Positions 169 to 17,853 of a stretch of DNA of 64,000 nucleotides are shown piece by piece. Origin of the DNA: an uncultured bacterium (GTDB lineage: Bacteria; Cyanobacteriota; Vampirovibrionia; Gastranaerophilales; Gastranaerophilaceae); NCBI GenBank assembly GCA_950022495.1, contig CATLLJ010000013.1:1-64000 (forward strand), given 5' to 3'. How positions within the stretch are numbered: the stretch's first letter is position 1; every line of letters starts with the position of its first letter. Position numbers and translations under genes: made by a program. The notes below the pieces were generated by a model, which worked only from the letters and a program-made list of their open reading frames with translations, was not told where the DNA came from and ran no database searches.

Positions 169-1224
169 ATTATTATGCTAGAAAATTTTGATATTAAAAT
201 AACAAATCAAATGTTATCTATTATCGCTGAAATAGATGAATTTAAAGGTTCTTGGAAACTTTTGGGACAAATGACTCCGGAAAAATTACAAGCATTAAAA
301 AAAGTAGCAACAATTGAAAGTGTTGGTTCTTCAAATAGAATTGAAGGAAACAAACTTTCTGATAAACAAGTTGAAGAATTACTTTCAAGAATAAATAAAC
401 AATCCTTTTCTAATCGAGATGAAGAAGAAGTTGCAGGATATGCAAAACTTGCTGATACAATTTTTGAGGATTGGGAAGTTATTCCGTTATCAGAGAATTA
501 TATAAAACAACTTCATAAAATTCTATTAGAATATTCTTCAAAAGATGAAAAGCACAAAGGTGAATACAAAAAAATTTCTAACGCAGTTGCGGCTTATGAT
601 AGCGAAGGTAAAGAATTGGGTGTTGTATTTGAAACCGCAACACCTTTTGAAACACCTTTGAAGATGCAAGAACTTATTGATTGGACTAATAAAAATTTGG
701 CAGATAGATTTTATCATCCGCTAATAGTTATTGGAGTTTTTGTAGTTAATTTTCTTGCAATCCACCCGTTTCAAGACGGAAATGGCAGACTATCCCGAGC
801 CTTAACTAATCTTTTGCTGTTAAAATCAGGTTACTTGTATATTCCATATAGTTCGACAGAATCAATAGTTGAAGATAACAAAGAAGCTTATTACAGAGCT
901 TTAAGACAAACTCAAACAACTTTAAAATCTGAACCAAATTATGAACCTTGGCTGATGTTTTTTTTGAAGACTCTACAAAAACAGAAAATCAGACTGGAGT
1001 ATAAATTAGAACATAATGAAACAAAAAAATTGTCTAATTTAAATTTACCTGAAGTTTCAGCAAAAATTATGGAAGTTTTTGAAACAAAAGACCGGGCTAC
1101 AATTTCTGAGTTGTCTGAACTAACAAGTACAAATATTAATACAATCAAAAAACACTTAGCAAATCTAGTAGCAAATAACTATCTGATAAAACATGGTAAA
1201 ACTCGGGGTGTGTGGTATACGAAA
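113..1224 (+). repeat. Left arm of a 1112-bp inverted duplication (fic and promoter)
   Basis: This segment matches 56674-57785 in inverted orientation. Both arms are 1112 bp with no apparent indel, from the base just before the TTGACA box to the last shared Fic codon. The encoded proteins differ at about 20 of 350 positions. Flanking sequence on either side is unrelated. Confidence 0.85.
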
Positions 1225-1245
1225 GTTCATAAATATATTAGCTAA
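175..1245 (+). CDS. Fic family protein (AMP-transferase type), copy 1
   Basis: Fic proteins usually transfer AMP from ATP to a hydroxyl side chain of a target protein. The complete motif HPFQDGNGR begins at His197, with the downstream Arg also present. A class II-type autoinhibitory motif, S53-x3-E57-G58, sits in the N-terminal helix region, so the enzyme should be self-inhibited by an intramolecular glutamate. The last ~70 residues resemble a winged helix-turn-helix, giving the Fic_N-Fic-wHTH layout of stand-alone regulators. At 356 residues it has normal length and looks intact. The ATG lies 25 bp after the predicted transcript start and has only a weak ribosome binding site. A second copy at 56671-57723 on the other strand is about 94% identical in protein. 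This copy has six extra C-terminal residues because homology stops just before its stop codon. The target protein cannot be told from sequence. Confidence 0.92.
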   Translation: MLENFDIKITNQMLSIIAEIDEFKGSWKLLGQMTPEKLQALKKVATIESVGSSNRIEGNKLSDKQVEELLSRINKQSFSNRDEEEVAGYAKLADTIFEDWEVIPLSENYIKQLHKILLEYSSKDEKHKGEYKKISNAVAAYDSEGKELGVVFETATPFETPLKMQELIDWTNKNLADRFYHPLIVIGVFVVNFLAIHPFQDGNGRLSRALTNLLLLKSGYLYIPYSSTESIVEDNKEAYYRALRQTQTTLKSEPNYEPWLMFFLKTLQKQKIRLEYKLEHNETKKLSNLNLPEVSAKIMEVFETKDRATISELSELTSTNINTIKKHLANLVANNYLIKHGKTRGVWYTKVHKYIS

Positions 1246-1297
1246 AGGTATGTTTATGGTAATATGATTTTATTAAGATTAAATTATATAGGTAGAA

Positions 1298-2713
1298 ATG
1301 AAACGAATTGAAAGATGTCAAATTTTTACACCAGATAATAAAGCGAATAAATTATTAGATATCATTGGATATAAAAAAGATTTGTATGGAAAAAAAATTT
1401 TAGAAAATTCGTGTGGAGATGGATCGGTCTTAAAACATGCTGTTTCAAGATATATTGAAGACTGCATAAACAAAAAATTTTCTTTAAAAACAATTAAAAC
1501 AGGATTGCAACATGATATATGGGGTTTTGAGATTGATTATTCTAAATATAATGATTGTATTAAAACTCTTAATAAGATCGCCGAATACTATGGTATTTAT
1601 GATGTTAAATGGAATATTCATGTTGCAGATTTCTTGAAATATAAGCTATCTCATAAGTTTTCATATATTGCCGGTAATCCTCCATATATCAATTATAGAG
1701 ATCTTGAACCAGAAACTAGAGAATTTATTAAAAATGAGTTTATTACATGTTCTAAAGGGAAATTTGATTATTGTTATGCCTTTATTGAAAAGAGTTTGAA
1801 TTGTTTATCTGATGATGGAAAGTTGTCATACCTAATCCCGAGTAGTATTTTTAAAAATGTTTTTGCAGAAAAACTTAGGGAATATGTTCTCCCTTCAATA
1901 ACTACAATTTATGATTTTAAAACTGAAAAAGTATTCTCAAAAGCTTTAGTTGCAACATCTATTTTAGTTTGTGAAAAAGGTAAAAACAAAAAACGAATTT
2001 TATATAAAAATGAAGAAAATAAAACTTGTATTAAGATCCCAAAAACTTCTTTAAAACAAAAATGGATATTTAAAGTTGAAGAACAAAAAAATAAAACTGC
2101 AAAGTTAAAATTTGGAGATTTATTTAATGCTCAAATTTCTATTGCTACTTTGTTAAACAAGGCTTTTATTATAAAACCTGATAAAAATATTGTTCTAGAA
2201 AATAATATCGAAGATGAGGTTATGAGACCCGCCAAAAGTCCTCGTAATCTTGCATATGAAATAGATGAACAAATTATATTCCCATATTATTATAAAGATG
2301 AAAAATTAATGAAGTATAAACCGGAAGAATTTGAAAAAAAATATCCTGGTGCAGTACAACATTTAAAAATGTTTGAAGATAAATTAGATAAACGAAACAA
2401 AGATACCTCTGCCGAATGGTTTGAATATGGACGAAGCCAAGCTTTATCCCATTTGAATCAAGAAAAGCTTTTAATATCGACTGTAGTAACCGATAATATA
2501 AAGGTATATGAACTTACAAAAGAAGATGTCCCTTATGCTGGAATATATATAACCTCAAAAGATGGTACTTCATTAAGTAAAGCAAAGCAGGTTCTTAATA
2601 GTGATGCATTTTTAGAATATGTAAATAATATTGGAATTCAAGCAAGTGGAACTTCATTAAGAATAACACCAAAAGATATTAACAATTATGAATTTGATAT
2701 GGAGGCAATATAA
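1298..2713 (+). CDS. N6-adenine DNA methyltransferase (Eco57I/gamma class-like)
   Basis: This is an S-adenosylmethionine-dependent DNA methyltransferase predicted to methylate adenine. The SAM-binding motif I appears as ENSCGDG at residues 36-42 and the catalytic motif IV is NPPY at 127-130. Motif I comes before motif IV, and the variable C-terminal half probably holds target recognition, as in Eco57I-like enzymes. The 471-residue length suits a stand-alone methylase; no nuclease domain is visible in the same chain. It heads a compact operon: its stop is one base before the next start codon, followed by a dual-ATPase protein, a receiver protein and an HNH nuclease. In that setting it may protect self DNA while the downstream genes sense or cut non-self DNA. 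The recognition sequence is unknown. Confidence 0.85.
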   Translation: MKRIERCQIFTPDNKANKLLDIIGYKKDLYGKKILENSCGDGSVLKHAVSRYIEDCINKKFSLKTIKTGLQHDIWGFEIDYSKYNDCIKTLNKIAEYYGIYDVKWNIHVADFLKYKLSHKFSYIAGNPPYINYRDLEPETREFIKNEFITCSKGKFDYCYAFIEKSLNCLSDDGKLSYLIPSSIFKNVFAEKLREYVLPSITTIYDFKTEKVFSKALVATSILVCEKGKNKKRILYKNEENKTCIKIPKTSLKQKWIFKVEEQKNKTAKLKFGDLFNAQISIATLLNKAFIIKPDKNIVLENNIEDEVMRPAKSPRNLAYEIDEQIIFPYYYKDEKLMKYKPEEFEKKYPGAVQHLKMFEDKLDKRNKDTSAEWFEYGRSQALSHLNQEKLLISTVVTDNIKVYELTKEDVPYAGIYITSKDGTSLSKAKQVLNSDAFLEYVNNIGIQASGTSLRITPKDINNYEFDMEAI

Positions 2714-2714
2714 T

Positions 2715-5060
2715 ATGGAAAAAATTACATATCAAATATCTTCTCGGGCCGCTATATTGTTGGGACGTGAAGGTGTATCAAAGGTTGATGGTGCAATAAT
2801 TGAGTTAATCAAAAATACCTATGATGCGGATGCTTCTTTTTGCATTTTGGCATTTGATGTGGAGCATGATGCAATTTATATAATAGATAATGGTACTGGC
2901 ATGACTAGAGATACAATACAGAATTGTTGGATGCTTATTGGTACAGATAATAAAAAAGTTGAATATCAATCAAAAAAGAATCGTATAAAATCTGGCGAAA
3001 AAGGGATTGGTCGTTTTGCATTAGATAGATTAGGTCAAGTATGTGAAATGTATACAAAACACAATTCATCTAGCAAAACTTTATATTGGAAAACGGATTG
3101 GAAAAATTTTGAAGAGTCAGGAAAAACAATTAACGAAGTGGCTGCTGATTTAGACTATTTAAACAATGATTTAAGTGAATTTCTTCCGACTGAAATTGTT
3201 AGAAATTTAGATGAAATAAATGAAGATTTGATAAATAATTTCCAAACAGGAACAATTTTAAAAATTACTAATTTACGTGATAATTGGACTAATAAGGCTA
3301 TTGAAAAAATTATCAATATGCTTTCTTATTCTATTCCAAATTCCGGAATAAATGAATATTCTATTTATGTTTTACCGTTTTTAACAGATAAAATTATTAA
3401 TATTGCAAATGAAATGCTTGATGAATTTGATTATAAATTAAACGCACATTTTGATGGTGAAAAATTTTATGTAAAAATGGTACGAAATGAATTTGATTTA
3501 AAAAGAATACCTGATAATATTTTTGAATTAAAGGAATTTTCTATTTATCCATATACTAAAGATGGCTTTGAAAAGGGGAATTTTGATATAGAATATTCAA
3601 TTGAAAAGTTAATGAATTCTTCCAGTCAAAATCTTGTATCAATTATTAAAGAAATTGGAGCATTTGACTTTGATTATTGCTTTTTAAAAATGAATATTGC
3701 TTCTAAAAAAGATAAAGAAACCTTTTATTATAAAGATATAAGCTCTAAAAGACGACAGTGGTTAAGCAATAATGCTGGAGTAAAAATTTACAGAGATAAT
3801 TTTATTGTAAGACCATATGGTGATATTAATTCAGATTCTTTTGACTGGTTAAATTTAGATGCAAGAAAGGCGAGTAGTCCAGCAGGTTTAGCACATGATA
3901 ATGGAAGTTGGAAAGTTAGAAACCAGCAAGGATATGGCAATGTTTACATTTCAAGAATAAATAACTCAACTATTTTGGATAAATCAAGTCGTGAAGGTAT
4001 TATTGATAATGAATATTTTGTTGTTTTTAAAGAAGTTCTGACTAACATAATAAGTATTTTTGAAAAGGACAGGCAATATATTGCAAGAGGATTTGCAAAA
4101 TACAAAGACATTATTGATAAAAAAGAGAAAAAGAAAAAAGAAGGTTTAAAATTAGCTCGAAATATTCTTAATAAAGAATCAGAAAAGCTTGCAAAAGATG
4201 CTTCTCAAAATGATATTAAAGATACTCACAGCACTTATTTCGGACAAGAGAATATTTCTACAAACAATGATGAACAGCTGGCAGAAGCACTTTTATTATT
4301 TGAAGAAGAAAAGGATAACTTATTAACAGAAATTAAGTTATTACGTACATTGGCAACAAATGGTCTAATTACTACTTCTATAGTCCATGATTTAATGGGA
4401 TTAAAGGCTGATTTAAAAAATAGAGCTAACGATTTTAAATATGTTATTCAAAATAATCATGAAGATTTAATTGATGAATATTTAAGTAATTTAGAACGAA
4501 ATGATGCTTTTTTAAGTTCTTGGATTTCAGTTGTCATTACCCAATTAAAACAAGACAAACGAAAACGGGTATTTGCTGATATTTATTCGATTATTAAAAA
4601 CTTGGAGATAATACTTTATCCATTATTGAAACAAAAAAATATAACATTAAATATTACTGGGGAAGTAAATTTAAATTATAAAAAAGTTTTTGTTGTTGAT
4701 ATTGAAAGTATAATATGCAATCTTGTAATTAACTCAATAGAAGCATTTAAAAAAACTAAAACTGCTAACCGAATAATTAATATAGAAGTAACTCAAGATG
4801 AAAATAATATAATAATTCGTTATACAGATAATGGTCCGGGAGTGTCAAAAGAATTTCAAACACCATATGAAATTTTTAACTTTGGAGTTACTGATAAAAA
4901 GGATAATAATACTGGGGAAATAATAGGTACGGGATTAGGAATGTATATAGTTTCTTCTACAGTGAATGAATATGGTGGAGAATACCAATTATTAGATAGT
5001 AATGGTTTTGGTATAGAATTAAAATTTCCTAAAGAAGGAGTAAATAATGGAAACTCTTAA
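2715..5060 (+). CDS. Protein with two GHKL ATPase domains (HSP90/MORC-like N-terminus, histidine-kinase-like C-terminus)
   Basis: The N-terminal ~250 residues carry GHKL (Bergerat) motifs: an N-box around E30 and N34, the acid-glycine box DNGTG at 58-62, and the lid box GEKGIG at 94-99. This resembles the HSP90/MutL/MORC ATPases known from some restriction operons. A long middle region and a lysine/glutamate-rich coiled segment follow. The C-terminal ~230 residues look like a histidine kinase core: a possible phosphoacceptor at H558 (IVHDLMG), an N-box near N673, DNGPG from 705 and a GTGLGM lid near 739. The ATG at 2715 is chosen because GGAGG lies at 2701-2705. The protein has 781 residues with no membrane segment, so it is cytosolic. 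Its stop overlaps the receiver gene's start by 14 bp, supporting a kinase-receiver pair. Function is inferred, not known. Confidence 0.8.
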   Translation: MEKITYQISSRAAILLGREGVSKVDGAIIELIKNTYDADASFCILAFDVEHDAIYIIDNGTGMTRDTIQNCWMLIGTDNKKVEYQSKKNRIKSGEKGIGRFALDRLGQVCEMYTKHNSSSKTLYWKTDWKNFEESGKTINEVAADLDYLNNDLSEFLPTEIVRNLDEINEDLINNFQTGTILKITNLRDNWTNKAIEKIINMLSYSIPNSGINEYSIYVLPFLTDKIINIANEMLDEFDYKLNAHFDGEKFYVKMVRNEFDLKRIPDNIFELKEFSIYPYTKDGFEKGNFDIEYSIEKLMNSSSQNLVSIIKEIGAFDFDYCFLKMNIASKKDKETFYYKDISSKRRQWLSNNAGVKIYRDNFIVRPYGDINSDSFDWLNLDARKASSPAGLAHDNGSWKVRNQQGYGNVYISRINNSTILDKSSREGIIDNEYFVVFKEVLTNIISIFEKDRQYIARGFAKYKDIIDKKEKKKKEGLKLARNILNKESEKLAKDASQNDIKDTHSTYFGQENISTNNDEQLAEALLLFEEEKDNLLTEIKLLRTLATNGLITTSIVHDLMGLKADLKNRANDFKYVIQNNHEDLIDEYLSNLERNDAFLSSWISVVITQLKQDKRKRVFADIYSIIKNLEIILYPLLKQKNITLNITGEVNLNYKKVFVVDIESIICNLVINSIEAFKKTKTANRIINIEVTQDENNIIIRYTDNGPGVSKEFQTPYEIFNFGVTDKKDNNTGEIIGTGLGMYIVSSTVNEYGGEYQLLDSNGFGIELKFPKEGVNNGNS

Positions 5061-5712
5061 TATTGCAATTTTAGATGATGATAAAACTAAAATTTCTAGA
5101 ATCAAGACTAAATTTGTTCAACAAAATGATCAAAATACAGAAATATATAATGATAGTTATAGTAACTATATTTTAAATTTAATTCCAATAGATGTTGAGC
5201 AAAGTTGCGAACAAATAGTTGAAGAAATTATAGCAAACAATTTTGACGGAATAATAATTGATTATGATTTTACTTCATTTGCTAAAACTCCGAATAACGG
5301 TGTTAAAATTGCAAATCAAATAAATAAAAAAGTATCAGAGTATCCACTATTTATTCTAACAGCTTATGAAAAACAATTATTTGCTAATGAAATGTTTGAC
5401 GCATATCAAATTTATAATTATGATAATTATTTAAATAATGTGAATGCTACAAAAGAGTTTCATTCCAGATTAATTGAACAAATTTTAAAATCAAGAAAGC
5501 AAAAGTCTCAATGGGAAACTGAACTAAAGAATTTATTAAAAAAAGCTGGTACTTCCATAGAAATAGATTCTAGAATATTAGAATTAGATAATAAATTAGA
5601 AACATCATTAGATAAAGAATGTGCACTTAATCCAAAATTAAAACAGGATTTATCTTCTAGTAAACTAGTAGAATTAATAGAAAAAATAAACAAGGTGTTA
5701 GAAGAGGATTAA
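5047..5712 (+). CDS. Receiver-domain protein paired with the dual-GHKL ATPase
   Basis: The N-terminal half reads as a response-regulator receiver domain: an acidic cluster at D10-D12, a likely phosphoacceptor D72 at the end of a hydrophobic strand (or D74), and T105 in the LTAYE switch strand. The conserved Lys-Pro of the last strand is not evident; an Asn-rich stretch stands in its place, so the domain may be atypical. The C-terminal ~90 residues are charged and helical and do not resemble a standard DNA-binding output domain. The gene overlaps the upstream kinase-like gene by 14 bp and ends one base before the HNH gene. It could carry a phosphoryl or conformational signal from the ATPase to the nuclease. 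That role is inference from order and spacing. Confidence 0.72.
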   Translation: METLNIAILDDDKTKISRIKTKFVQQNDQNTEIYNDSYSNYILNLIPIDVEQSCEQIVEEIIANNFDGIIIDYDFTSFAKTPNNGVKIANQINKKVSEYPLFILTAYEKQLFANEMFDAYQIYNYDNYLNNVNATKEFHSRLIEQILKSRKQKSQWETELKNLLKKAGTSIEIDSRILELDNKLETSLDKECALNPKLKQDLSSSKLVELIEKINKVLEED

Positions 5713-5713
5713 A

Positions 5714-6316
5714 TTGAATAATTTGCAAAGAAAAATACCTAAACGTTCGGAAGTGGAAAAAAAATTAAAATTTAATAATTATAGAGAAGAATTATCTAAA
5801 GACTTTAACCATAGATGCGGATATTGTGATGATAGTTCAGAATATGCATGTTGCTCATATCATATTGACCATTTTGCTCCTAGAAAATTTGAACATTTAA
5901 TAGACAATTATAATAATTTGGTTTATTCATGTCCTTATTGTAATCTGTCTAAAGGTGATAAATGGCTTGGTGATTCACCTCAAGATGCTATTGTTAATGG
6001 TTTAGGATTTGTTGATCCATGTAATCCAGAATATAGTAAAATGTTCAAACGATTAAATAATGGGAAAATAGAACCCTTGAATCATTTAGCTGAATATATT
6101 TATTATGAACTTAAATTATATTTAAAGCGACATGAAATACTTTATTTAATTGAAGAAATTAATGAAAAAGGTATAAAGTTAAATCAGAAGATAGATAATT
6201 TAAAATCTCAAGGAAAAAATACAGAAAAATTAGAAAGAATTGATTATGAATTATTAAAATATTTTAGAGATTATTATAACATTTATAGAAAAGTTTGGAA
6301 TGGAAAAAGTAATTAG
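5714..6316 (+). CDS. HNH endonuclease, last gene of the methylase-ATPase operon
   Basis: A compact HNH nuclease core is clear: a zinc CxxC at C35/C38, the H50-x-D52-H53 element, the strand N68-L-V, and a second CxxCN at C73-C76-N77 followed by K80. This arrangement resembles the HNH proteins of Septu (PtuB) and retron-associated families, which act as toxic or DNA-cutting effectors next to an ATPase. The C-terminal ~100 residues are helical and charged. The TTG start at 5714 is supported by AGAGG at 5703-5707 and by one-base spacing after the receiver gene. It is the likely effector of the operon. No terminator is obvious in the 200 bp that follow. Confidence 0.82.
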   Translation: MNNLQRKIPKRSEVEKKLKFNNYREELSKDFNHRCGYCDDSSEYACCSYHIDHFAPRKFEHLIDNYNNLVYSCPYCNLSKGDKWLGDSPQDAIVNGLGFVDPCNPEYSKMFKRLNNGKIEPLNHLAEYIYYELKLYLKRHEILYLIEEINEKGIKLNQKIDNLKSQGKNTEKLERIDYELLKYFRDYYNIYRKVWNGKSN

Positions 6317-6516: not shown

Positions 6517-7098
6517 ATGGATTATAAATTTATCAATACCGGTTCGGAAGAACACTTAAATTTGCGTATACAATCAGAAAGGTTGATAAAAGAATATAAT
6601 TCATTGGATTATGAAGATAATGCCGGAAAAAGAAACATCCTTGAAAATCTATTTGGTTCTATTGGGGAAAATGTTTTTGTTTGAACAAATTTCTATTGCG
6701 ATTCGGGGAAAAATATTTTTATAGGTAACGATGTGATTATAGGTCCGAATTGTACCTTTATTGATAATGAAAAAATTACAATAGGTTCTAGTGTAATGAT
6801 TGCCCCAAATGTACAAATTTATACTTCGTATCATCCTATTTTGCCCGAAGATAGATATATTTATGATAGAGCAGAAAATGATCCGGTATATTTTAGAACA
6901 TGTGCTGATGCAGTTGAAATAAAATACGGTGCATTGCTTGGCGGCGGTGTTATAATCTTACCGGATGTTACAATCGGCAAAAACAGTATCGTTGGAGCCG
7001 GAAGTGTCGTAACTCGTTCAATTCCGGATGGTTGTGTCGCTGTTGGTAATCCTTGTATACCTGTCAAATTTTTTGATGATATAAGACGGACATGTTAA
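6517..7098 (+). pseudogene. Maltose/galactoside O-acetyltransferase-like gene with an in-frame TGA
   Basis: Read from the ATG at 6517, preceded by AAGGAG, the frame encodes a left-handed beta-helix acetyltransferase of the Maa/LacA type. It has the N-terminal helical segment, then hexapeptide repeats, and near the end the typical GGG-x-IILP-x-VTIG and IGAGSVVT signatures. A TGA at 6682-6684 falls in-frame where relatives usually have a polar or acidic residue (the 'ENVYIEPNF' region). The remainder is open to 7098. Such enzymes use acetyl-CoA to acetylate sugars in the cytosol. The gene may be inactive, or the TGA may be a sequence error. The downstream part alone, from an internal ATG at 6733, would lack the N-terminal domain. 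Confidence 0.72.
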
Positions 7099-8438: not shown

Positions 8439-8497
8439 TTGTAAAAATTTTTCTATTTATTTATAATTATAATGTTATATTGGAATTAGGTTGGAGG
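8439..8497 (+). promoter_or_regulatory. Promoter and ribosome binding site of the autotransporter gene
   Basis: A sigma-70-like promoter fits here: TTGTAA at 8439-8444, a 17-bp spacer and a perfect TATAAT at 8462-8467. GGAGG at 8493-8497 lies five bases before the ATG at 8503. That ATG, not the upstream TTG, is the probable start because it begins a clean signal peptide. Confidence 0.6.
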
Positions 8498-8502
8498 ATA
8501 AT

Positions 8503-11500
8503 ATGAAGACTAAAAGTCGTAATTTGTATGCCATCGCAGCAATTATTTCAGTTGTATTATGCGGTGTGCAGAATGTAGATGCTGCAAACTTGTCATCGTA
8601 TACAACTTTGCAATCAGCATTAGCTGCTAATGCTGATTCTTTAAATATAGGTATAAATGAAAATTCTACAGTAACAGCTCCGGTGTTTAGAGCTTCTGTT
8701 GCTGCGTTAACCGCTGTTTACTCTTCTTTGGAAGATGCGGTTTCTGCTACAGAATTAGATCGTAGTTATACGTTAGTATCTGCAGAATCTACTACAGGAT
8801 TAGGTGTTCTTGGCGGAGACGGTGCTACTTTAACGATATATGGTAACGGTCATTCTATAAGTTCAACAGGAGCAGGGATAACTGTAGAAAACGGACAAAC
8901 TTTAAACAGTCATAAGGTAAGCGGCTGGTCTTCAAGTGGTTTATCTTCAGCTTTAATTGAAAATAATGGTACAACTGCACTAAAAAATTCTATATATGAA
9001 AATAATTCAAATGTTGTTATAAATAATAGCGGTAAATTTTCAACCATAGGTACTGACTTTAAGAACAATAGCGGAACAACTGCAGTAAATAATGCTTCAA
9101 CAGGTGAAGTTAGACTATCAGGCGGCACATTTGAAGGTAATAATAGAGCAATAACAAACGCTAATAAATTAACTTTGACTAATGTAACTGTAAAAGCCGG
9201 TTCAGGGGCTGTAAAAAATGATATAAATACAACAGATGAATTGATCTTAACAGGAACAAATAATTTAAATAGTGATATCTCAGGTTCAGGCTCAATTACA
9301 AATCAAGGAACAGCAAATCTAACCGGTGATAACAGCCAATATATAGGTACTTACACTCAATCTTCAACTAGTGCCGTAACAAATGTGAATGATGGTAAAT
9401 TTTTTGGTGGGGAATCAACAATAACAGGCGGAACTTTGAACTGGTTAACTTCAAATGATATTGAAAATACTGCTAATTTAACTTTGTCCGGCAACAGTAA
9501 ATTAAATGTTGGTGATGATGCACATAATACAACATTATCTATAAATACAGGAAGTTCAATAGCTGATACTGCAACTGTTGCCGTATCAACAGGCTCAACC
9601 CTGAATGTTTCAGGCGGTAATGTCGTTCTTAATAGTGATGATACGGATGTTAATGGTACAGTACATTTAACTGATGGAAAGTTGCTGCTTAACAACTTTA
9701 CTACATCAGGAACTATCAACGCAGAACAGGGTAATCTAACAGTTGGCAGTGTTGGTACGACTAAATTAAACGGTCAAACTACAATTAGCGGCGATGTAAC
9801 AACAAATATAAGCGGAAGATTGGAAGTTAATAATGCGGCTTCTGATATAACATTAAATAATGGAGATACTATTTCCGGAACTGTTAATTTAAAATCCGGT
9901 AATTTAACACTTGATGATTTAACGACTTCAGGAACAATTAAAGCAGAAGCCGGAAACTTTATAGTTAATGGTAACACTACACTTAATGGAGTTACTACAA
10001 TTAACGGTGCGGTAAATACAACAGTAAATGGTACTTTAGCTATTAATAACTCAAATGCTAATACAAATGTAGTATTTAATTCCGGTGATTCAATTGAAGG
10101 CGGTAAAGTAGACTTACAAGCCGGTAAATTAACTTTAGATGGCAATTTTAAAACTACAACCGGAGAAATTTCCGCTACAGGTGGTTCTGTTGTAGTTAAT
10201 ACTAATATTGATTTAAAAGGTAAGACAACAATTGATGCCGATGCTGCGGTGCAAATTAACGGTAATTTAAACGTTGAAAATTCTGCTTCTAATATTGTAT
10301 TGAATAATAATGATACTATCGCAAGTGCTGGTAAACTTAGTTTAAATGCCGGTACATTAGCGTTAAATGGTTTTACTACAAGTGGTGAAATTGCTGCTGC
10401 TAATGGAAATGTTTCAGTTGCAGGGACAACAAATCTTAACGGTAAAACTACTATCGCTGATACTGTGGCTGCAACAATCAATGGCACTATGAATATAAAT
10501 AATGCCGATTCAAGTGTAACATTAAACAATAATGATGAAATTACCGGAACCGTTAATTTGAAATCAGGTAATTTAACACTTGATGGTTTAACAACTTCAG
10601 GCACAATTAATGCAGATGGCGGTAATGTTACAGTAAATAATAACACTGTATTAAACGGTGTTACAACTATTGCAAACGCTGCTAATGTTGCAATCAATGG
10701 TACTTTGAATGTTAATAATTCAGCATCTCAAATTGCTCTTAATTCAACTTCTGATACTATAGATAAAACTAATGGAAAATTTTCTTTGCAAGCCGGTCAA
10801 TTGACTTTGACTGATTTTACAACAGAAGGTGAAATAGCGGCTTCGGGTGGCAAGGTTATTATTAATGGTACTAATGACTTAAAAGGTAAAACTACAATTG
10901 ATAGATTGGCTGACCTTGATGTTAAAGGTACTCTTGGTATTAATAATGCAGACTCAAATGTTATTATAGACTCAACAGATAAGTTAACCGGCCTTGTAAA
11001 ATTATCTGACGGGAACGTAACTGTTGACTCTATAACTACATCCGGCGGAATTTATGCAGACGGCGGGGTTTTGACTGTTAATGGAAATACCTCAACTACA
11101 GGTTATACAGAACTTCGTGAAGCTGTGAAGCTTGTTGTTAATTCAGGTTCTGAATTTAAACTTAATAATGGTAATGTAAATACAAATATTGTTCTTGATA
11201 GTGATGATGAAATTAACGGTACTGTTAATATGGAAATGGGTAAATTAACCCTTGAAACTCTGGAAACTGAGGGTACAATTCTGGCATCAGGCGGACAATT
11301 TATTGTAAACGGTAATAATACTTTAAATGGAGTTACTTCAATTGCAGGTGCTGTTACAACAACTGTTAACGGTACATTAGGTATTAATAATTCTGATACA
11401 AATACAAACATTGTATTAGATTCAAATGACTCAATTGAGGGCGGTAAAGTAGATTTACAAAACGGTAAATTAACACTTAACGGTTTCACAACTACCAATG

Positions 11501-14500
11501 GTGAAATTGCTGCCTCAGGCGGTAATGTTGTGGTTAACGGTACTAATAACTTAAGCGGTAAAACTACAATTGAAAAAAATGTTATTGCAAATATCAATGG
11601 TAGCTTAAATATTGATAATGCGGATTCTAATGTTGTATTGAGCGGTAATGATACTATTGCAAATAGTGGTAAAGTAAGTTTAGTTGCCGGTACATTAAAT
11701 CTCGATGGCTTAACAACCGGTGGTGAAATTTCAGCAAACAGCGGAAATGTTACTATTGACGGTGTTACTAATTTGAATGGTAAAACAACAATCGGCGATG
11801 GTGCGACTACACAAGTTAACGGTACTTTGAACATCAATAATACAAATTCAAATGTAACATTAAATACAGGTGATACTATTACAGGTACAGTTGGTTTAAA
11901 ATCAGGAAACTTAAATGTTACAGGTCTAACTACTGCCGGTATAATAGACGCAGATGGTGGAAATCTTACATTCTCAGGTACTAATAATTTAACAGGTACC
12001 GTAACTGTTGCAGATGCTGTAAATACTATAATTAATGATACTTTAACTGTAAATAATGCAAATTCTAATATTGTATTGAATTCAACAGACGCATTAAACG
12101 GTGTAGTTAATCTTGCAGATGGTACATTAAATCTTAAAGGTTTAACTACTAACGGTACAATTGATGTTGATGGCGGTAAGTTTATAGTTGACGGCAGAAC
12201 AACTTTGAATGGTGAAACTACAATTGATGCTGCTGTTGAGACTGTTATTAATAACGGTGCAGTTTTAGCTCTTAACAATGCAAATTCAACTGTAACTTTG
12301 AATAGAGTTGATGAAACCAACAAAGATACTTGGAATGGTACTATTGAGTTAACAAACGGCACTTTAAATACCGAAGGTTTAACTGCTAACGGTGCAATTC
12401 AAGCTATAGGCGGTAATATCAATATTAAATCTGGCGATTTAAAAATTGAAGGAACCAGCTATATTGGAAATGCAAGTAATCAAGGTGCAGATGTAAATAT
12501 TTCAAACGGCGGTTCTTTAATCTTCAATAAGGATTCTATAATTGCTAAATCTATAACCGGTACAGGTAATATTACTGTAAATGGTTCAAAATTAACATTT
12601 AACAGCGGATCATCTGTTGATAATACTCTTGGATTTACTTCAACAAATAATTCAACAGCAGTAATTAATGCAAATAATGCCTCTGTTAATGATATTCTTC
12701 ATATTATTAATAACGGTACAAATACCGGTTTAACTATTGATGTTAAAAATAATAACATTTCCGAAAATTTAACAATTGACGGTACAAATATTTCTCAATT
12801 AAAACTTGCAGGCGGTACATATTCAGGTAATCTGGTAAATAATGGAACAGTATCAAATACAGGTGTTCTTAATTTGTCAGGTCAAATGAGCGGCAGCGGT
12901 ATATTTAATAATTCTGCAAATACCAATGTTACTGCTGACCAATCTGGTTTTAAAGGTACTTATAATCAGTCTGCTGGTAATTTAGTTGTTGATGCTAACG
13001 GTAAAATATTTGGCGGAGATAAAAATATTAATGGCGGAACTGTTTCAGTAACTTCAAATTCTGCTATTGATTATGGTAAAGTTCACCTTGGCAGCGGAAC
13101 AAAATTAACACATAATTCTCAAGAAGGTGTTGATAATACTATTGATAAATCTACAGTTGATTTTAAAGGTTCAAATGCAACTGCGGAATTTGTTTCCGGT
13201 AATTATCATCTTGCAGAAAAAGTTGGAAATAATAAATCTAACAATGTTGTATTTAAGAATTCAAATGTAACACTTGGTTCTACTGATTATAAAGATGGTG
13301 CTAAATACCAATTGGTTGGTTCAGATTTGAATCTTGTTGAAACAATTGATGAAGGTGTTCAAACTAACCATTATCAATTTGATAATTTAACTGCAAATAA
13401 TTCAACATTAAGCTTTAATGTAAAAATTGTTGATGGTGCAGCTCCTGGTTCTAAAGTTCTTGAAACAGATAGAATTACTATTACTAATAATTCAGGAACT
13501 CAATTCAAATTCGGTAATATATATATTACAGGAGAAGAAAACGGCTATCCTGAAAAATACAATACAGTAAATAATGTTCTAACAAACGCAACATTTGTTG
13601 GTCAACCTGATGTTGATAATATTACTTTTGCTACAGGTGCTACAACATCATGGGAATACGATGTAAAATCTGCAAATTCCGGACATAGTATTTCTATGGA
13701 AATTACAAATTACACAGATGAAAATACATTGTATAAAATGAACGACACTGAAGGTGTTAGATTCTTCCAATTCTCTGATGACGGTACTGATAAATTAGAT
13801 GTTTATCATATTGGACAATCATTGGGCGAAACAAAAGGACCTAGACCTGGTCAAACTGACCCTGCAATATTCAATGTTACAGGTCATAACAGAGATAAAA
13901 ATATTATTTCAGGTCTAATTGAATCAACCGGTGCTAAAGGCAGCTTATTTGATATTCATGAAGGTACAAATATTGAATTGAATATTAAAAATTTAACAAT
14001 TCAAGATGCTGATAAATCAGGGGATGGCTCTGTTGTTTATAATAACAGCACAAAAGGCAATGTTACACTTTCCAATGTCGGTATCAAAAACAACGGTGGT
14101 ACCAGTGCTATTTATAACGCAGGTACTTTGAGTGTTGATAAATCAATTTTTGAAGGTAATACAGGAATTGCTATCAATAACACTGGAACAAGTACAATTA
14201 CCGGTACTGAATTCAAAAATAATACCGGTTCAACAACTGTACAAAATGCCGGCGAAATGACAATCTCAAATAGTAAATTTAGCGGCAACACAAGTGCAAT
14301 ATCAAATACTAATAAATTAACTCTGAACAATGTAACAGTAGATGCAGGTTCTGGTTCTGCAAAAAATGATATCAACACAACCGGCGAATTAACTCTAACA
14401 GGAACAAATAATCTAAATAGTGATATCTCAGGTTCAGGTTCAATTGAAAATCAAGGAACAGTAAACCTAACCGGAGATAACAGCCAATATGCAGGTACTT

Positions 14501-17500
14501 ATACTCAGGCTCAAGGAACAACAAACGTAAATAACGGCAAGTTCTTTGGCGGAGAATCAACAATAACCGGCGGAACCTTAAACTGGTTAACTTCAAATGA
14601 TATTGAGGATACTGCTAAATTAGTAGTTTCCGGTAATGGTACAAGAGTAAATGTTGGTAATACTGCTAATAATACAACTTTAACTATTAAGAATGGAAGT
14701 TCAATAGCTAATGAAGCTGTAATTGCAATTGCAAAAGATTCTACATTAGGTGTTGATGCTAACGGTACCGTTAATATCAATGGCAATGATGTTTGGAGCG
14801 GTAAAGTTGAAGTTACAGATGGTATTTTAAATATTTCTGGCAGAGATGGAAACGGTCAATTTGTTGCAAATGGCGGAGAAGTAAATCTTAATTCAGGCAA
14901 TCTTTATATTGCAGAAGGCAGCAATATTATAGGTGATGGCAGCAATCCTGCTGTTACAATTGCAGATAAAACTAACTTGAATATCACCGGTGGTGATGTA
15001 ACATTGAATTCTAATGATACATGGACAGGTGCAGTTAATGTTGGTTCTGGTAATCTGGTAATTGATAACGTAACATCTAACGGTGTAATTACTGCTGAGG
15101 GTAACGATTCAACAGTTACTTTAAAAACCGGTGGAAACCTTAATATCGGTAAAGGTAGTGCTATTACAGAAGCAGTTACTGTTGCTCTTGAAGATAACAC
15201 CGTTACAACTATCTCTGATAAAGGCGGCTTAGCTTTAAATACAGGTGATAGCTGGTTAGGTGATATTATTGTTAATAAAGATGGTTTATTAACTGTAAAT
15301 AATATTGATTCAAACGGTAAACTTACTGCAAATAGCGGTACTGTTAATGTTAAAAGCGGATCTTTAGAAATTGCAGCTGACAGCTCTATTAAAAATGATG
15401 CAAATGTTATAATTGCAAATAATTCAACCTTAAAAGTTACCGGCGGTGATGTAGAACTTAACGGTGACGATTGGAAAGGTACTGTTGAAGTTACTTCCGG
15501 TCAATTAGATTTATCAGGTTACAATAATACTAATAAGAAAAATGGTAAATTTATTGCAAAAGAAGGCGGTACTGTTAATATTAATCAAGGTACTTTAACT
15601 GTTGCAAAAGGCAGTGAGATTGCCGGTGTATCTGATGATGTAGCGACAAGTTCATCTGTAAAAATCAAAGACGGTACAGAATTATTAATCGCTGGTGGTA
15701 AAGTTACACTTGATGCTAATGACCTTTGGGATGGCTTAGTAACTATGACATCCGGTACTCTTAATATCGAAGCAAGGGACTCTAACAAAGGTGTTCTTCA
15801 CGCTGATGCAGGTAACTTGAACTTCTCAACCGGTACTTTAACTATTGAAAATGGTTCATATATCGACTTAGATGTAAAAGTTGCATTGCCTGAAAATTCA
15901 GTAATTGATATCAAAAAAGGCGGTACTGTTGCTATCAATGATAACGATATCTGGGATGGTGAAATTACTCTTAACGGCGGTGTTCTTAATTACGGAACAA
16001 CTCACAGCGGCACTTTGACTGCTAACACCGGTGATATGAACTTGTTAAGCGGTTCAGTACTTAATATTCAAATTCCAAGTCAGGTTGCTGATGAAGTTAA
16101 CGTTGATATTCAGCAAAACGCTCTTGTTAACATCAGAAACGGTGCAGAATTTAATCTTGACTCCAAAGATAAATGGAGCGGTATGATTAATAATGGAGGC
16201 GGTACATTAACTACTTCTCAATTGACAAATTCAACGGGTTCAGGCGGCGGCTTGCAGCAAACTGCAGGAACCTCAATTTTTAAAGATAATTCTCATATTT
16301 CAATTACTGATGCTAACAGCTACATTAGAGGCGGCGATGTTCAAATTCTTGATAATTCCAGCCTATACTTTGGAGCCGGAACTGCAGAATTAAATGTTGA
16401 TAATTTAACAATGGATGGCAGTTCACTTCTAAATGTTATGAACGGTAAATTAAATACTTCTAATATTACTAACATGACAGTTAACGGTAAAAACGATGTT
16501 TCAATTAACATTACTCCAAGAGATTGGACTCATGATAAATTTGTTGTAGATACTTTAAAATCAGATTCTAAAGGTACAGTAAATATTTCAGATTTCGATT
16601 TCTTAGGATATGCTCCAATTGATAGACATATCAAGATGCAGATATTTGATGTTAAATCAATCCAAAATGTAAAATTCGATACAACAGACAAAGAAATCTT
16701 CACTCCAATCGGCTGGTATGATTTAAAATCTGTTGGCGGCGGATACTTTACATCTAATATGGTAAGATATAACCCTCAAGTATTTAGAGGTCAAGTTGCA
16801 ACTCAGGCTATGTATAATAACCAGCTTGCAATTAATGATATGCTTCTTAATCACGTAAGCTTGCAAAGTGAAAGATTGTTAGCTCAAGGTCATAATGCAA
16901 ATAAATATGCTATTAATGCTTCACAATTTGCACCATATCAATACAAAAAAGAAGATGGCGGATTATGGTTCAAATCTTATGTTAACTTTGAAACCTTGTC
17001 CTTAACAAGAGGCTTGCACGTTAATAACAATGCGTATGGTTCAATTGTTGGTGCTGATTTCCCTGTAGTTAATATGAAAAATGGCTGGAAATTTATGCCG
17101 ACTGCATTCATTGCATACAACGGTTCTCACCAGACATTTAGCAAAGTTGGTATGTATCAAAACGGCGGACAGGGCGGCTTTATGGGAACATTCATGAAGG
17201 ATGATTTCATTGGTTCTGTTCTTGCTTACGGCGGCGGATATAGTAACGAAATGTCTGTTGCAGGATTTAAAGATTATTCTGATAACTGGTTTGCCGGTAC
17301 TGCTGCAAAACTTGCTTATAATCTTCATGCAACCGAACACTTTACAGTTCAACCAACAGCATTTGTTTCATATAACATCTTCGGTAAACAAAACTGGAAC
17401 ACTGATTTCGGTACAATGAGTATGAACTCTGGTTTACTTAACGGTGTGAATGTTGCACCTGGTGTGAACTTGATTTATGCAAGAGAAACCTGGAATATGT

Positions 17501-17853
17501 ATGCAACAATTCAATATATGATTAATATTAATGATCAGGTTGGCGGTAGAGCAGGTAATGTAAATCTTGCCAGCATTGATATGAAACACGGTTATATTCA
17601 ATACGGTGTTGGTGTTACTAAAACCTGGAAAGACCGCTTAAGTTCTTACTTCCAAATCTTACTTAGAAACGGAGGAAGAACAGGTGTTGGTTTCCAACTT
17701 GGTTTACAGTACTTATTTGGTATGAAGAATCCGGTTCATGTTAAAAATAATACTAAAACCAAAGTAGTAAAAAATAAAAATGACATCGAAGTTTCTCAAA
17801 CTAAAAATGTCAGCCAAAAGAAAAAAGTAGTTAAATCATTATCAATGAAATAA
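8503..17853 (+). CDS. Giant repeat-rich type V autotransporter adhesin-like protein
   Basis: The 3116-residue product begins with a signal peptide (MKTKSRN, a hydrophobic core, cleavage near VDAA). A huge passenger rich in Asn, Thr, Gly and Ser follows. From roughly residue 380 to 1290 it is built of tandem units of about 75-80 residues containing NGTLNINN, a GTVNL-K-SGNLTL segment and TTSGTI-A-GGN, as expected for a beta-helix. A ~200-residue block near the N-terminus (nt ~8950-9570) recurs at nt ~14050-14700. From about residue 2820 the sequence becomes a beta-barrel with alternating aromatic strands, ending at LGLQYLFG near residue 3075. About 40 lysine-rich residues follow, which is unusual because autotransporters normally end at the last barrel strand. 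It is probably a surface adhesin; the ligand is unknown. Confidence 0.88.
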   Translation: MKTKSRNLYAIAAIISVVLCGVQNVDAANLSSYTTLQSALAANADSLNIGINENSTVTAPVFRASVAALTAVYSSLEDAVSATELDRSYTLVSAESTTGLGVLGGDGATLTIYGNGHSISSTGAGITVENGQTLNSHKVSGWSSSGLSSALIENNGTTALKNSIYENNSNVVINNSGKFSTIGTDFKNNSGTTAVNNASTGEVRLSGGTFEGNNRAITNANKLTLTNVTVKAGSGAVKNDINTTDELILTGTNNLNSDISGSGSITNQGTANLTGDNSQYIGTYTQSSTSAVTNVNDGKFFGGESTITGGTLNWLTSNDIENTANLTLSGNSKLNVGDDAHNTTLSINTGSSIADTATVAVSTGSTLNVSGGNVVLNSDDTDVNGTVHLTDGKLLLNNFTTSGTINAEQGNLTVGSVGTTKLNGQTTISGDVTTNISGRLEVNNAASDITLNNGDTISGTVNLKSGNLTLDDLTTSGTIKAEAGNFIVNGNTTLNGVTTINGAVNTTVNGTLAINNSNANTNVVFNSGDSIEGGKVDLQAGKLTLDGNFKTTTGEISATGGSVVVNTNIDLKGKTTIDADAAVQINGNLNVENSASNIVLNNNDTIASAGKLSLNAGTLALNGFTTSGEIAAANGNVSVAGTTNLNGKTTIADTVAATINGTMNINNADSSVTLNNNDEITGTVNLKSGNLTLDGLTTSGTINADGGNVTVNNNTVLNGVTTIANAANVAINGTLNVNNSASQIALNSTSDTIDKTNGKFSLQAGQLTLTDFTTEGEIAASGGKVIINGTNDLKGKTTIDRLADLDVKGTLGINNADSNVIIDSTDKLTGLVKLSDGNVTVDSITTSGGIYADGGVLTVNGNTSTTGYTELREAVKLVVNSGSEFKLNNGNVNTNIVLDSDDEINGTVNMEMGKLTLETLETEGTILASGGQFIVNGNNTLNGVTSIAGAVTTTVNGTLGINNSDTNTNIVLDSNDSIEGGKVDLQNGKLTLNGFTTTNGEIAASGGNVVVNGTNNLSGKTTIEKNVIANINGSLNIDNADSNVVLSGNDTIANSGKVSLVAGTLNLDGLTTGGEISANSGNVTIDGVTNLNGKTTIGDGATTQVNGTLNINNTNSNVTLNTGDTITGTVGLKSGNLNVTGLTTAGIIDADGGNLTFSGTNNLTGTVTVADAVNTIINDTLTVNNANSNIVLNSTDALNGVVNLADGTLNLKGLTTNGTIDVDGGKFIVDGRTTLNGETTIDAAVETVINNGAVLALNNANSTVTLNRVDETNKDTWNGTIELTNGTLNTEGLTANGAIQAIGGNINIKSGDLKIEGTSYIGNASNQGADVNISNGGSLIFNKDSIIAKSITGTGNITVNGSKLTFNSGSSVDNTLGFTSTNNSTAVINANNASVNDILHIINNGTNTGLTIDVKNNNISENLTIDGTNISQLKLAGGTYSGNLVNNGTVSNTGVLNLSGQMSGSGIFNNSANTNVTADQSGFKGTYNQSAGNLVVDANGKIFGGDKNINGGTVSVTSNSAIDYGKVHLGSGTKLTHNSQEGVDNTIDKSTVDFKGSNATAEFVSGNYHLAEKVGNNKSNNVVFKNSNVTLGSTDYKDGAKYQLVGSDLNLVETIDEGVQTNHYQFDNLTANNSTLSFNVKIVDGAAPGSKVLETDRITITNNSGTQFKFGNIYITGEENGYPEKYNTVNNVLTNATFVGQPDVDNITFATGATTSWEYDVKSANSGHSISMEITNYTDENTLYKMNDTEGVRFFQFSDDGTDKLDVYHIGQSLGETKGPRPGQTDPAIFNVTGHNRDKNIISGLIESTGAKGSLFDIHEGTNIELNIKNLTIQDADKSGDGSVVYNNSTKGNVTLSNVGIKNNGGTSAIYNAGTLSVDKSIFEGNTGIAINNTGTSTITGTEFKNNTGSTTVQNAGEMTISNSKFSGNTSAISNTNKLTLNNVTVDAGSGSAKNDINTTGELTLTGTNNLNSDISGSGSIENQGTVNLTGDNSQYAGTYTQAQGTTNVNNGKFFGGESTITGGTLNWLTSNDIEDTAKLVVSGNGTRVNVGNTANNTTLTIKNGSSIANEAVIAIAKDSTLGVDANGTVNINGNDVWSGKVEVTDGILNISGRDGNGQFVANGGEVNLNSGNLYIAEGSNIIGDGSNPAVTIADKTNLNITGGDVTLNSNDTWTGAVNVGSGNLVIDNVTSNGVITAEGNDSTVTLKTGGNLNIGKGSAITEAVTVALEDNTVTTISDKGGLALNTGDSWLGDIIVNKDGLLTVNNIDSNGKLTANSGTVNVKSGSLEIAADSSIKNDANVIIANNSTLKVTGGDVELNGDDWKGTVEVTSGQLDLSGYNNTNKKNGKFIAKEGGTVNINQGTLTVAKGSEIAGVSDDVATSSSVKIKDGTELLIAGGKVTLDANDLWDGLVTMTSGTLNIEARDSNKGVLHADAGNLNFSTGTLTIENGSYIDLDVKVALPENSVIDIKKGGTVAINDNDIWDGEITLNGGVLNYGTTHSGTLTANTGDMNLLSGSVLNIQIPSQVADEVNVDIQQNALVNIRNGAEFNLDSKDKWSGMINNGGGTLTTSQLTNSTGSGGGLQQTAGTSIFKDNSHISITDANSYIRGGDVQILDNSSLYFGAGTAELNVDNLTMDGSSLLNVMNGKLNTSNITNMTVNGKNDVSINITPRDWTHDKFVVDTLKSDSKGTVNISDFDFLGYAPIDRHIKMQIFDVKSIQNVKFDTTDKEIFTPIGWYDLKSVGGGYFTSNMVRYNPQVFRGQVATQAMYNNQLAINDMLLNHVSLQSERLLAQGHNANKYAINASQFAPYQYKKEDGGLWFKSYVNFETLSLTRGLHVNNNAYGSIVGADFPVVNMKNGWKFMPTAFIAYNGSHQTFSKVGMYQNGGQGGFMGTFMKDDFIGSVLAYGGGYSNEMSVAGFKDYSDNWFAGTAAKLAYNLHATEHFTVQPTAFVSYNIFGKQNWNTDFGTMSMNSGLLNGVNVAPGVNLIYARETWNMYATIQYMININDQVGGRAGNVNLASIDMKHGYIQYGVGVTKTWKDRLSSYFQILLRNGGRTGVGFQLGLQYLFGMKNPVHVKNNTKTKVVKNKNDIEVSQTKNVSQKKKVVKSLSMK
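9640..12370 (+). repeat. Tandem ~230-bp coding repeats in the autotransporter passenger
   Basis: At least ten diverged units of about 75-80 codons lie head to tail. Each contains a GTLNINN-like strand, a SGNLTLDGLTTSG-like strand and a GGNVTVNG-like strand. The near-repeats at DNA level make this a likely site for length change by recombination. They also explain the long accidental open frames on the other strand. Confidence 0.8.

Follow-up and report, generated by a model that had tools for sequence, protein, structure and literature searches.

A single gene in the window, the whole 64,000-nucleotide stretch of gut-bacterial DNA analyzed here, encodes two unlike GHKL ATPases in one protein, and it lies in an operon with a methyltransferase, a receiver protein, and an HNH nuclease. 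The gene runs from an ATG at 2715 to a stop codon at 5058 to 5060 and gives 781 amino acids. An alternative in-frame ATG was present at 2688; the kinase of a relative (L003), which is 63 to 64% identical, begins at the 2715 position. The coordinates of the features are listed in the table.

Table. Features of the four-gene cassette, with positions in the window
Feature	Position	Strand	Evidence
N6-adenine DNA methyltransferase of the Eco57I type (gene 1 of the cassette, 471 aa)	1298..2713	+	Pfam, PADLOC
Dual-GHKL clamp/histidine kinase, 781 aa	2715..5060	+	Pfam, AlphaFold, structural matches, conservation
ATPase clamp of the Hsp90/MORC/MutL type: GHKL at the N terminus and S5-like middle domain (residues 7-461)	2733..4097	+	Structural match
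E30, the Glu predicted to act as catalytic base in the clamp ATPase	2802..2804	+	E in 36/36 homologues
Putative Arg finger, R426 (SREG motif)	3990..3992	+	R in 36/36 homologues; Hsc82 range end 461 -> 411
Long coiled-coil helix, residues 433-497	4011..4205	+	AlphaFold model
DHp-like helix pair, residues 516-579 and 583-610	4260..4544	+	AlphaFold model; HK853 Z 19.9
H558, putative phospho-accepting histidine	4386..4388	+	H in 36/36; range start 553 = 255/256 of HK853
CA (kinase-type ATP-binding) domain, residues 616-775, N669xxxN673, DNGPG, GTGLGM	4560..5039	+	HATPase_c; ThkA
Receiver protein, 221 aa: REC domain (1-150) and C-terminal helices	5047..5712	+	AlphaFold, ArcA match, conserved residues
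D72, putative phospho-accepting aspartate, end of beta-3	5260..5262	+	D in 13/13
HNH nuclease, 200 aa, TTG start, PtuB/TIGR02646-like, zinc-binding CxxC pairs	5714..6316	+	Pfam, PADLOC

Two unlike GHKL ATPases in one chain

A first-pass annotation had proposed that the protein joins an ATPase of the Hsp90/MORC type to one of the histidine-kinase type. Every motif that it named was found at the quoted place, namely, E30/N34, DNGTG (58), GEKGIG (94), H558, N673, DNGPG (705), and GTGLGM (738). Pfam matched both HATPase_c_3 (residues 24 to 138, E = 2e-20) and HATPase_c (residues 662 to 773, E = 4e-14), far beyond chance. The full chain was modeled with AlphaFold2 from 36 aligned homologues, comprising the window, L003, and viral-contig loci (pLDDT 85.3, pTM 0.65). 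The model consisted, in order, of a GHKL domain, an S5-like middle domain, a coiled coil, a flexible stretch at about residues 500 to 515, a helix pair, and a second GHKL domain from about residue 616, and a membrane segment was not evident. It contained the two Bergerat folds and the DHp-like helix pair that the annotation had named as features to look for, with H558 lying in the first helix; it showed neither a single GHKL fold nor a missing helical dimerization element, either of which the annotation had named as counting against the proposal.

In the structure search, residues 7 to 461 of the model matched MORC3 with Z = 21.2 (rmsd 3.4 over 302 residues); Hsc82 and MutL matched with Z scores of 21.0 and 18.4. 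These matches agree with the proposed type of the N-terminal half. This half is an N-terminal GHKL and S5 module with intact ATP motifs, as in paraMORC and MORC-like proteins. E30, N34, G60, G62, G94, K96, G97, G99, and R426 were present in all 36 homologues. R426 is part of the motif D(K/Q)S(S/N)REG, which is similar to SREMLQ, the Arg-finger motif of Hsp90. Judging from this motif and from the matched range, with which the end of the Hsc82 match agrees, R426 possibly corresponds to the Hsp90 Arg finger. The motif of MORC proper, GhXhhpXXRhl, was not found in the S5 domain, which has GVKIYRDNFIV there instead; F363, nearly invariant in A1, occupies the position where the MORC motif demands R.

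The C-terminal half was of the histidine-kinase type, as proposed. A DHp-CA core of the HisKA type spans residues 516 to 775, with the N, G1, and G2 boxes in the CA domain and a DHp hairpin bearing the putative phospho-accepting histidine. Residues 553 to 775 matched HK853 (Z = 19.9, 211 residues, rmsd 4.9), and the CA domain matched that of ThkA (Z = 19.4). Because the matched range begins at residue 255 or 256 of HK853, H558 falls at HK853 His260, given an unbroken helix; His260 is the residue that is phosphorylated in HK853. H558, N669, N673, G707, G738, G740, and G742 were present in all 36 homologues. The annotation had doubted phosphorylation of H558 since its box is imperfect; that doubt is eased by the invariance of H558 and by the E or D that follows it in 35 of the 36 homologues. 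At matching places, the clamp has E30, a hydrolase-type base, whereas the CA domain has N669, in a kinase-type site. Both ATPase sites thus appear from their residues to be active, one of the hydrolase type (E30/N34/R426) and the other of the kinase type (N669/N673/H558).

A four-gene operon with a receiver and a nuclease

The four genes are arranged in the order methyltransferase, kinase, receiver, and HNH nuclease. One nucleotide separates the methyltransferase and kinase genes, and another the receiver and HNH genes; the receiver gene adjoins the kinase gene with an overlap of 14 nt. The receiver model (pLDDT 82) matched the REC domain of ArcA (Z = 14.4) and showed a (beta-alpha)5 fold, the acidic pair, the phospho-Asp position, and the Thr/Ser position. 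Among the homologues, D72 and T105 (end of beta-4) were present in 13 of 13 and D10 (end of beta-1) in 12. The usual REC lysine after beta-5 is Y125 in the window receiver and K in 9 of the 13 homologues, and given this replacement, the switching of the window-clade receivers may be unusual. No recognizable DNA-binding output domain was found in the window receiver, whose matches covered the REC part and generic helices, and no known output was recognized in its C-terminal helices. The PADLOC model PDC-M60B was rejected as the identity of the receiver, as its match (E = 0.001) was found in the window only and was not repeated in seven other receivers. A match to PorX past the REC domain was set aside at an rmsd of about 9.

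The methyltransferase matched Eco57I in Pfam (E = 1.5e-20) and MTase_II in PADLOC (E = 1.1e-48). The HNH protein matched HNH in Pfam (E = 6.5e-6), and its strongest PADLOC match was PtuB1 (E = 1.5e-12). Retron Ec78 and retron I-A PtuB are among its closest relatives of known structure, and H53, N68, and the cysteines C35/C38/C73/C76 were present in all 14 sequences compared. A DNA methyltransferase and a nuclease gene thus share one operon, as in type II restriction-modification (R-M) systems. Because these two genes flank the kinase-receiver pair, a restriction-type output is more likely than ordinary signaling, and the cassette suggests DNA cutting under a phosphate-relay switch rather than by an always-on enzyme.

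The surroundings were also examined. A SoFic-type Fic gene lies at 175 to 1245 (+), 52 nt upstream of the methyltransferase; it was rejected as a cassette member since it is absent beside the methyltransferase in L003, L040, L042, and L044. Just 3' of the cassette, at 6517 to 7098, an acetyltransferase-like frame is broken by an in-frame TGA (6682 to 6684), which probably reflects gene decay or an error of sequencing. Further downstream (8491 to 17853), a repetitive surface protein of 3120 residues with an autotransporter-like end adjoins a TolC-like gene for outer-membrane efflux. Four relatives have noncassette genes after their TolC-like gene, which indicates that the cassette site is variable.

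Distribution, co-evolution, and exchange of the cassette

Full-length kinase homologues were found in 7 of the 290 genomes of the window's relatives, its own genome counted, and the gene is therefore sporadic. Single-protein scans detected only L003 among genome contigs and nothing among viral contigs, whereas the alignment query detected 40 viral-contig loci. The kinase, REC, and HNH genes occurred in fixed order in 21 distinct loci, including the window, from at least four phyla and on chromosomes, plasmids, and viral contigs. The hosts were Gastranaerophilales, Bacteroides finegoldii, Salipiger, Ensifer, and Deinococcus gobiensis, besides the viral contigs. A methyltransferase was adjacent in 19 of these loci, the other two (L045 and L056) being cut by the contig end. 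Seventeen loci carried either a class A methyltransferase before the kinase (8) or a class B one after the HNH gene (9), and L008 and L062 had an Eco57I-type or weak N6_Mtase gene beside the trio. In L003, type I R-M genes neighbor the cassette.

In wider relatives, the kinase and REC genes were kept, with REC adjacent in essentially every locus, and the remaining genes varied. Their methyltransferases were diverse (Eco57I-type, a second N6 class, and C5). Their receivers had 340 to 715 residues, and profile comparison related them to the window receiver with probabilities of 94.8 and 96.5. For the larger receivers (430 to 715 residues) and the third genes (230 to 270 residues) of sister classes, Pfam and PADLOC gave no useful output domain. 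Sister-class receivers of 430 to 470 residues (L033:8113-9411, L066:9143-10537, and similar ones) had in common a C-terminal region that is conserved and carries an invariant C334 in a CD motif; this region had no match in Pfam or PADLOC and is possibly a new effector domain. On a Hymenobacter plasmid (L031:8650-9732), a metallo-beta-lactamase-fold gene stands at the usual HNH place, a possible effector exchange. In one relative (L048:3759-4490), a 243-residue frame that by eye resembles a MutY/EndoIII DNA glycosylase separates the kinase from a C5 methyltransferase. Decayed kinase copies, broken up over two or three frames or interrupted by many stops, were seen at L030:5941-8568, L032:5971-8241, and L015; their hosts were Rhizobium phaseoli, Klebsiella variicola, and one relative genome.

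On a quick tree, the HNH class formed nearly one clade, with 2 label changes compared with 17.3 after shuffling (0 of 500). The distances within the trio were strongly correlated in Mantel tests (kinase-receiver r = 0.89, kinase-HNH 0.84, and receiver-HNH 0.85; n = 21), all with P = 0.0005 by label permutation, P values in which shared ancestry remains. Class B methyltransferases were also correlated with the trio (r = 0.87 to 0.92, n = 9), and class A methyltransferases were not (r = 0.11 to 0.17, P = 0.17 to 0.24, n = 8). In Gastranaerophilales, all four pairings of two methyltransferase types with two trio types were present. The window and L042 share methyltransferases that are 84% identical, whereas their kinase, REC, and HNH proteins are 35, 17, and 27% identical; for L003 and L044, the corresponding values were 96% against 34, 18, and 29%. 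Pairs with the same trio type were far closer in these three proteins (63 to 64, 56, and 62% for the window and L003; 75, 67, and 66% for L042 and L044). The DNA of L003 and L044 was 92 to 100% identical as far as the start of the kinase gene, beyond which identity across the trio was 50 to 66%. Because of the four pairings and this break in identity, the trio was, most simply, swapped en bloc beside a resident methyltransferase. Read from these sequences, the kinase, REC, and HNH genes are most simply one unit with an exchangeable methyltransferase in Gastranaerophilales.

Proposed function, rival explanations, and known relatives

From these results we infer a DNA trigger, kinase activity, phosphotransfer, control of the nuclease, and an anti-phage role. 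The chances seem about even that the locus is a defense cassette of the restriction type in which a clamp-gated His-Asp relay switches the nuclease. In such a system, the methyltransferase would mark the host genome. The kinase dimer would be held by the coiled coil and the DHp bundle, and its N-terminal halves would form an ATP-driven clamp as in MutL, MORC, and Hsp90, with R426 as a possible Arg finger. The clamp would shut on a trigger, most likely DNA that the host has not marked, or a structure made on it by a phage. The coiled coil would carry the strain to the DHp-CA core, which would phosphorylate H558, and the phosphate would move from there to D72 of the receiver. The phosphorylated receiver would release or recruit the HNH nuclease, and nucleic acid would be cut. 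The more specific proposal, that cutting is licensed by the phosphorelay, with a clamp-kinase sensing unmarked or phage DNA, a receiver switching the HNH nuclease on, and a trio exchangeable between methyltransferases, is tentative and falls somewhat short of even chances. Several points weigh against the relay: Y125 replaces the receiver lysine, the C-terminal helices of the receiver have no recognized output, a PtuB-like HNH protein need not be a DNase (RNA cutting or abortive action is possible), and co-evolution of the trio is also expected from plain co-inheritance in an operon. The independence of the class A methyltransferase could mean that it is a loose neighbor, although class B co-varies.

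The kinase and receiver could instead regulate the R-M system, sensing a cell state such as nucleotide level and tuning the expression or activity of a conventional methyltransferase and HNH nuclease. Such a role was already proposed in 2021 for the sister family HEF_HK/Response_reg_2 (PMC8011034), and the nearly constant adjacency of the REC partner and a kinase without an evident membrane segment would suit it. We consider it unlikely, because the window receiver lacks a recognizable DNA-binding output domain and the HNH nuclease co-varies with the kinase whereas the class A methyltransferase does not, so that direct nuclease control fits better. A still more doubtful explanation makes the DHp-CA core a structural, ATP-dependent dimerization module without phosphotransfer and REC a docking adaptor, within a MutL-like clamp-nuclease machine driven by ATP hydrolysis only. 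The clamp half alone does resemble MutL and MORC, and the REC switch lysine is missing in the window and its close kin; the invariance of H558, N669, N673, and the G2 glycines in 36 of 36 kinases and of D72 and T105 in 13 of 13 receivers would be difficult to account for unless the chemistry of phosphorylation were under selection. We give the same low weight to an abortive HNH effector that acts on RNA or on any DNA, including that of the host, after phage sensing, as in retron and Septu PtuB, with the methyltransferase as a separate modification gene or only a guard against self-triggering. The retron relatives of the HNH protein, its PtuB1 match, and the exchange of the class A trio independently of the methyltransferase would agree with this; the methyltransferase adjacent in nearly all loci and co-varying in class B, and a cassette without a PtuA-type ATPase, argue against it.

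In the common view, restriction enzymes are always armed and are restrained by methylation; if the relay reading is true, a His-Asp relay from a DNA-clamping ATPase represents a different control. It would also help to explain the frequent association of MORC-like ATPases with R-M systems, a question since 2008. The two-by-two exchange is a natural experiment in which one methyltransferase type stands beside two very different effector trios.

Finally, the cassette was compared with known systems. Bellieny-Rabelo et al. (2021) described HATPase_c_3-HEF_HK-HATPase_c proteins with a receiver-like neighbor near R-M genes (PMC8011034). The HEF_HK (PF19191)/Response_reg_2 (PF19192) pairs share with the window the order HATPase_c_3, DHp-like region, and HATPase_c, the adjoining receiver-like gene, the R-M surroundings, and a core His followed by E/D. 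They differ in that the query receiver there has 600 residues (PMC8011034), compared with about 220 and a separate HNH gene here, and the window clade lies on a branch distant from the HEF_HK-like L036 to L038 on the quick tree. Assignment to HEF_HK was rejected, since Pfam gave no match in the kinase at E ≤ 1 or in the genome at E ≤ 0.001, as was assignment to Response_reg_2, with no match in the receiver at E ≤ 1 or in the genome at E ≤ 10. According to the part of Iyer, Abhiman and Aravind (2008) compared here, paraMORC1 co-occurs with methylases and sometimes with HNH nucleases (PMC2292703). It resembles the kinase in its N-terminal GHKL and S5 domains, an unexplained C-terminal extension, and its HNH/methylase company, whereas a histidine-kinase core and a receiver partner are not reported in that part, the comparison being by description alone. 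MORC, MutL, and Hsp90 clamps share the fold of residues 7 to 461, the catalytic Glu, and the putative Arg finger, but the C-terminal dimer module here is a DHp-CA kinase core.

A related precedent for the proposed function is the paraMORC3-type VcSduA, in which GHKL and nuclease are fused and which requires its ATPase for phage defense (PMC12137116). For these Shedu-type proteins too, control of the nuclease by a GHKL clamp in phage defense has been proposed; their nuclease is fused and of the PD-(D/E)xK type, and they lack a kinase and receiver. Septu and retron PtuB effectors share the HNH domain family of the fourth gene, whereas the HNH partner here is a kinase-receiver pair and the cassette has no PtuA ATPase; assignment to Septu (PtuAB) was rejected since the five genes at 175 to 6316 include no AAA/ABC ATPase. 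A REC-HNH cassette or such a module exchange was not found reported in the openly licensed papers searched, which is weak evidence of absence, and no bench test of this class was found there. The figure legend of a 2026 study names HATPase and REC among the domains of predicted, unvalidated defense systems (PMC13092281). Altogether, the class is known in outline and its concept has been published as a prediction, for paraMORC1 with HNH in 2008 and for HEF_HK/Response_reg_2 in 2021; the clade described here lies outside both Pfam models, has a stand-alone HNH nuclease, and shows module exchange.
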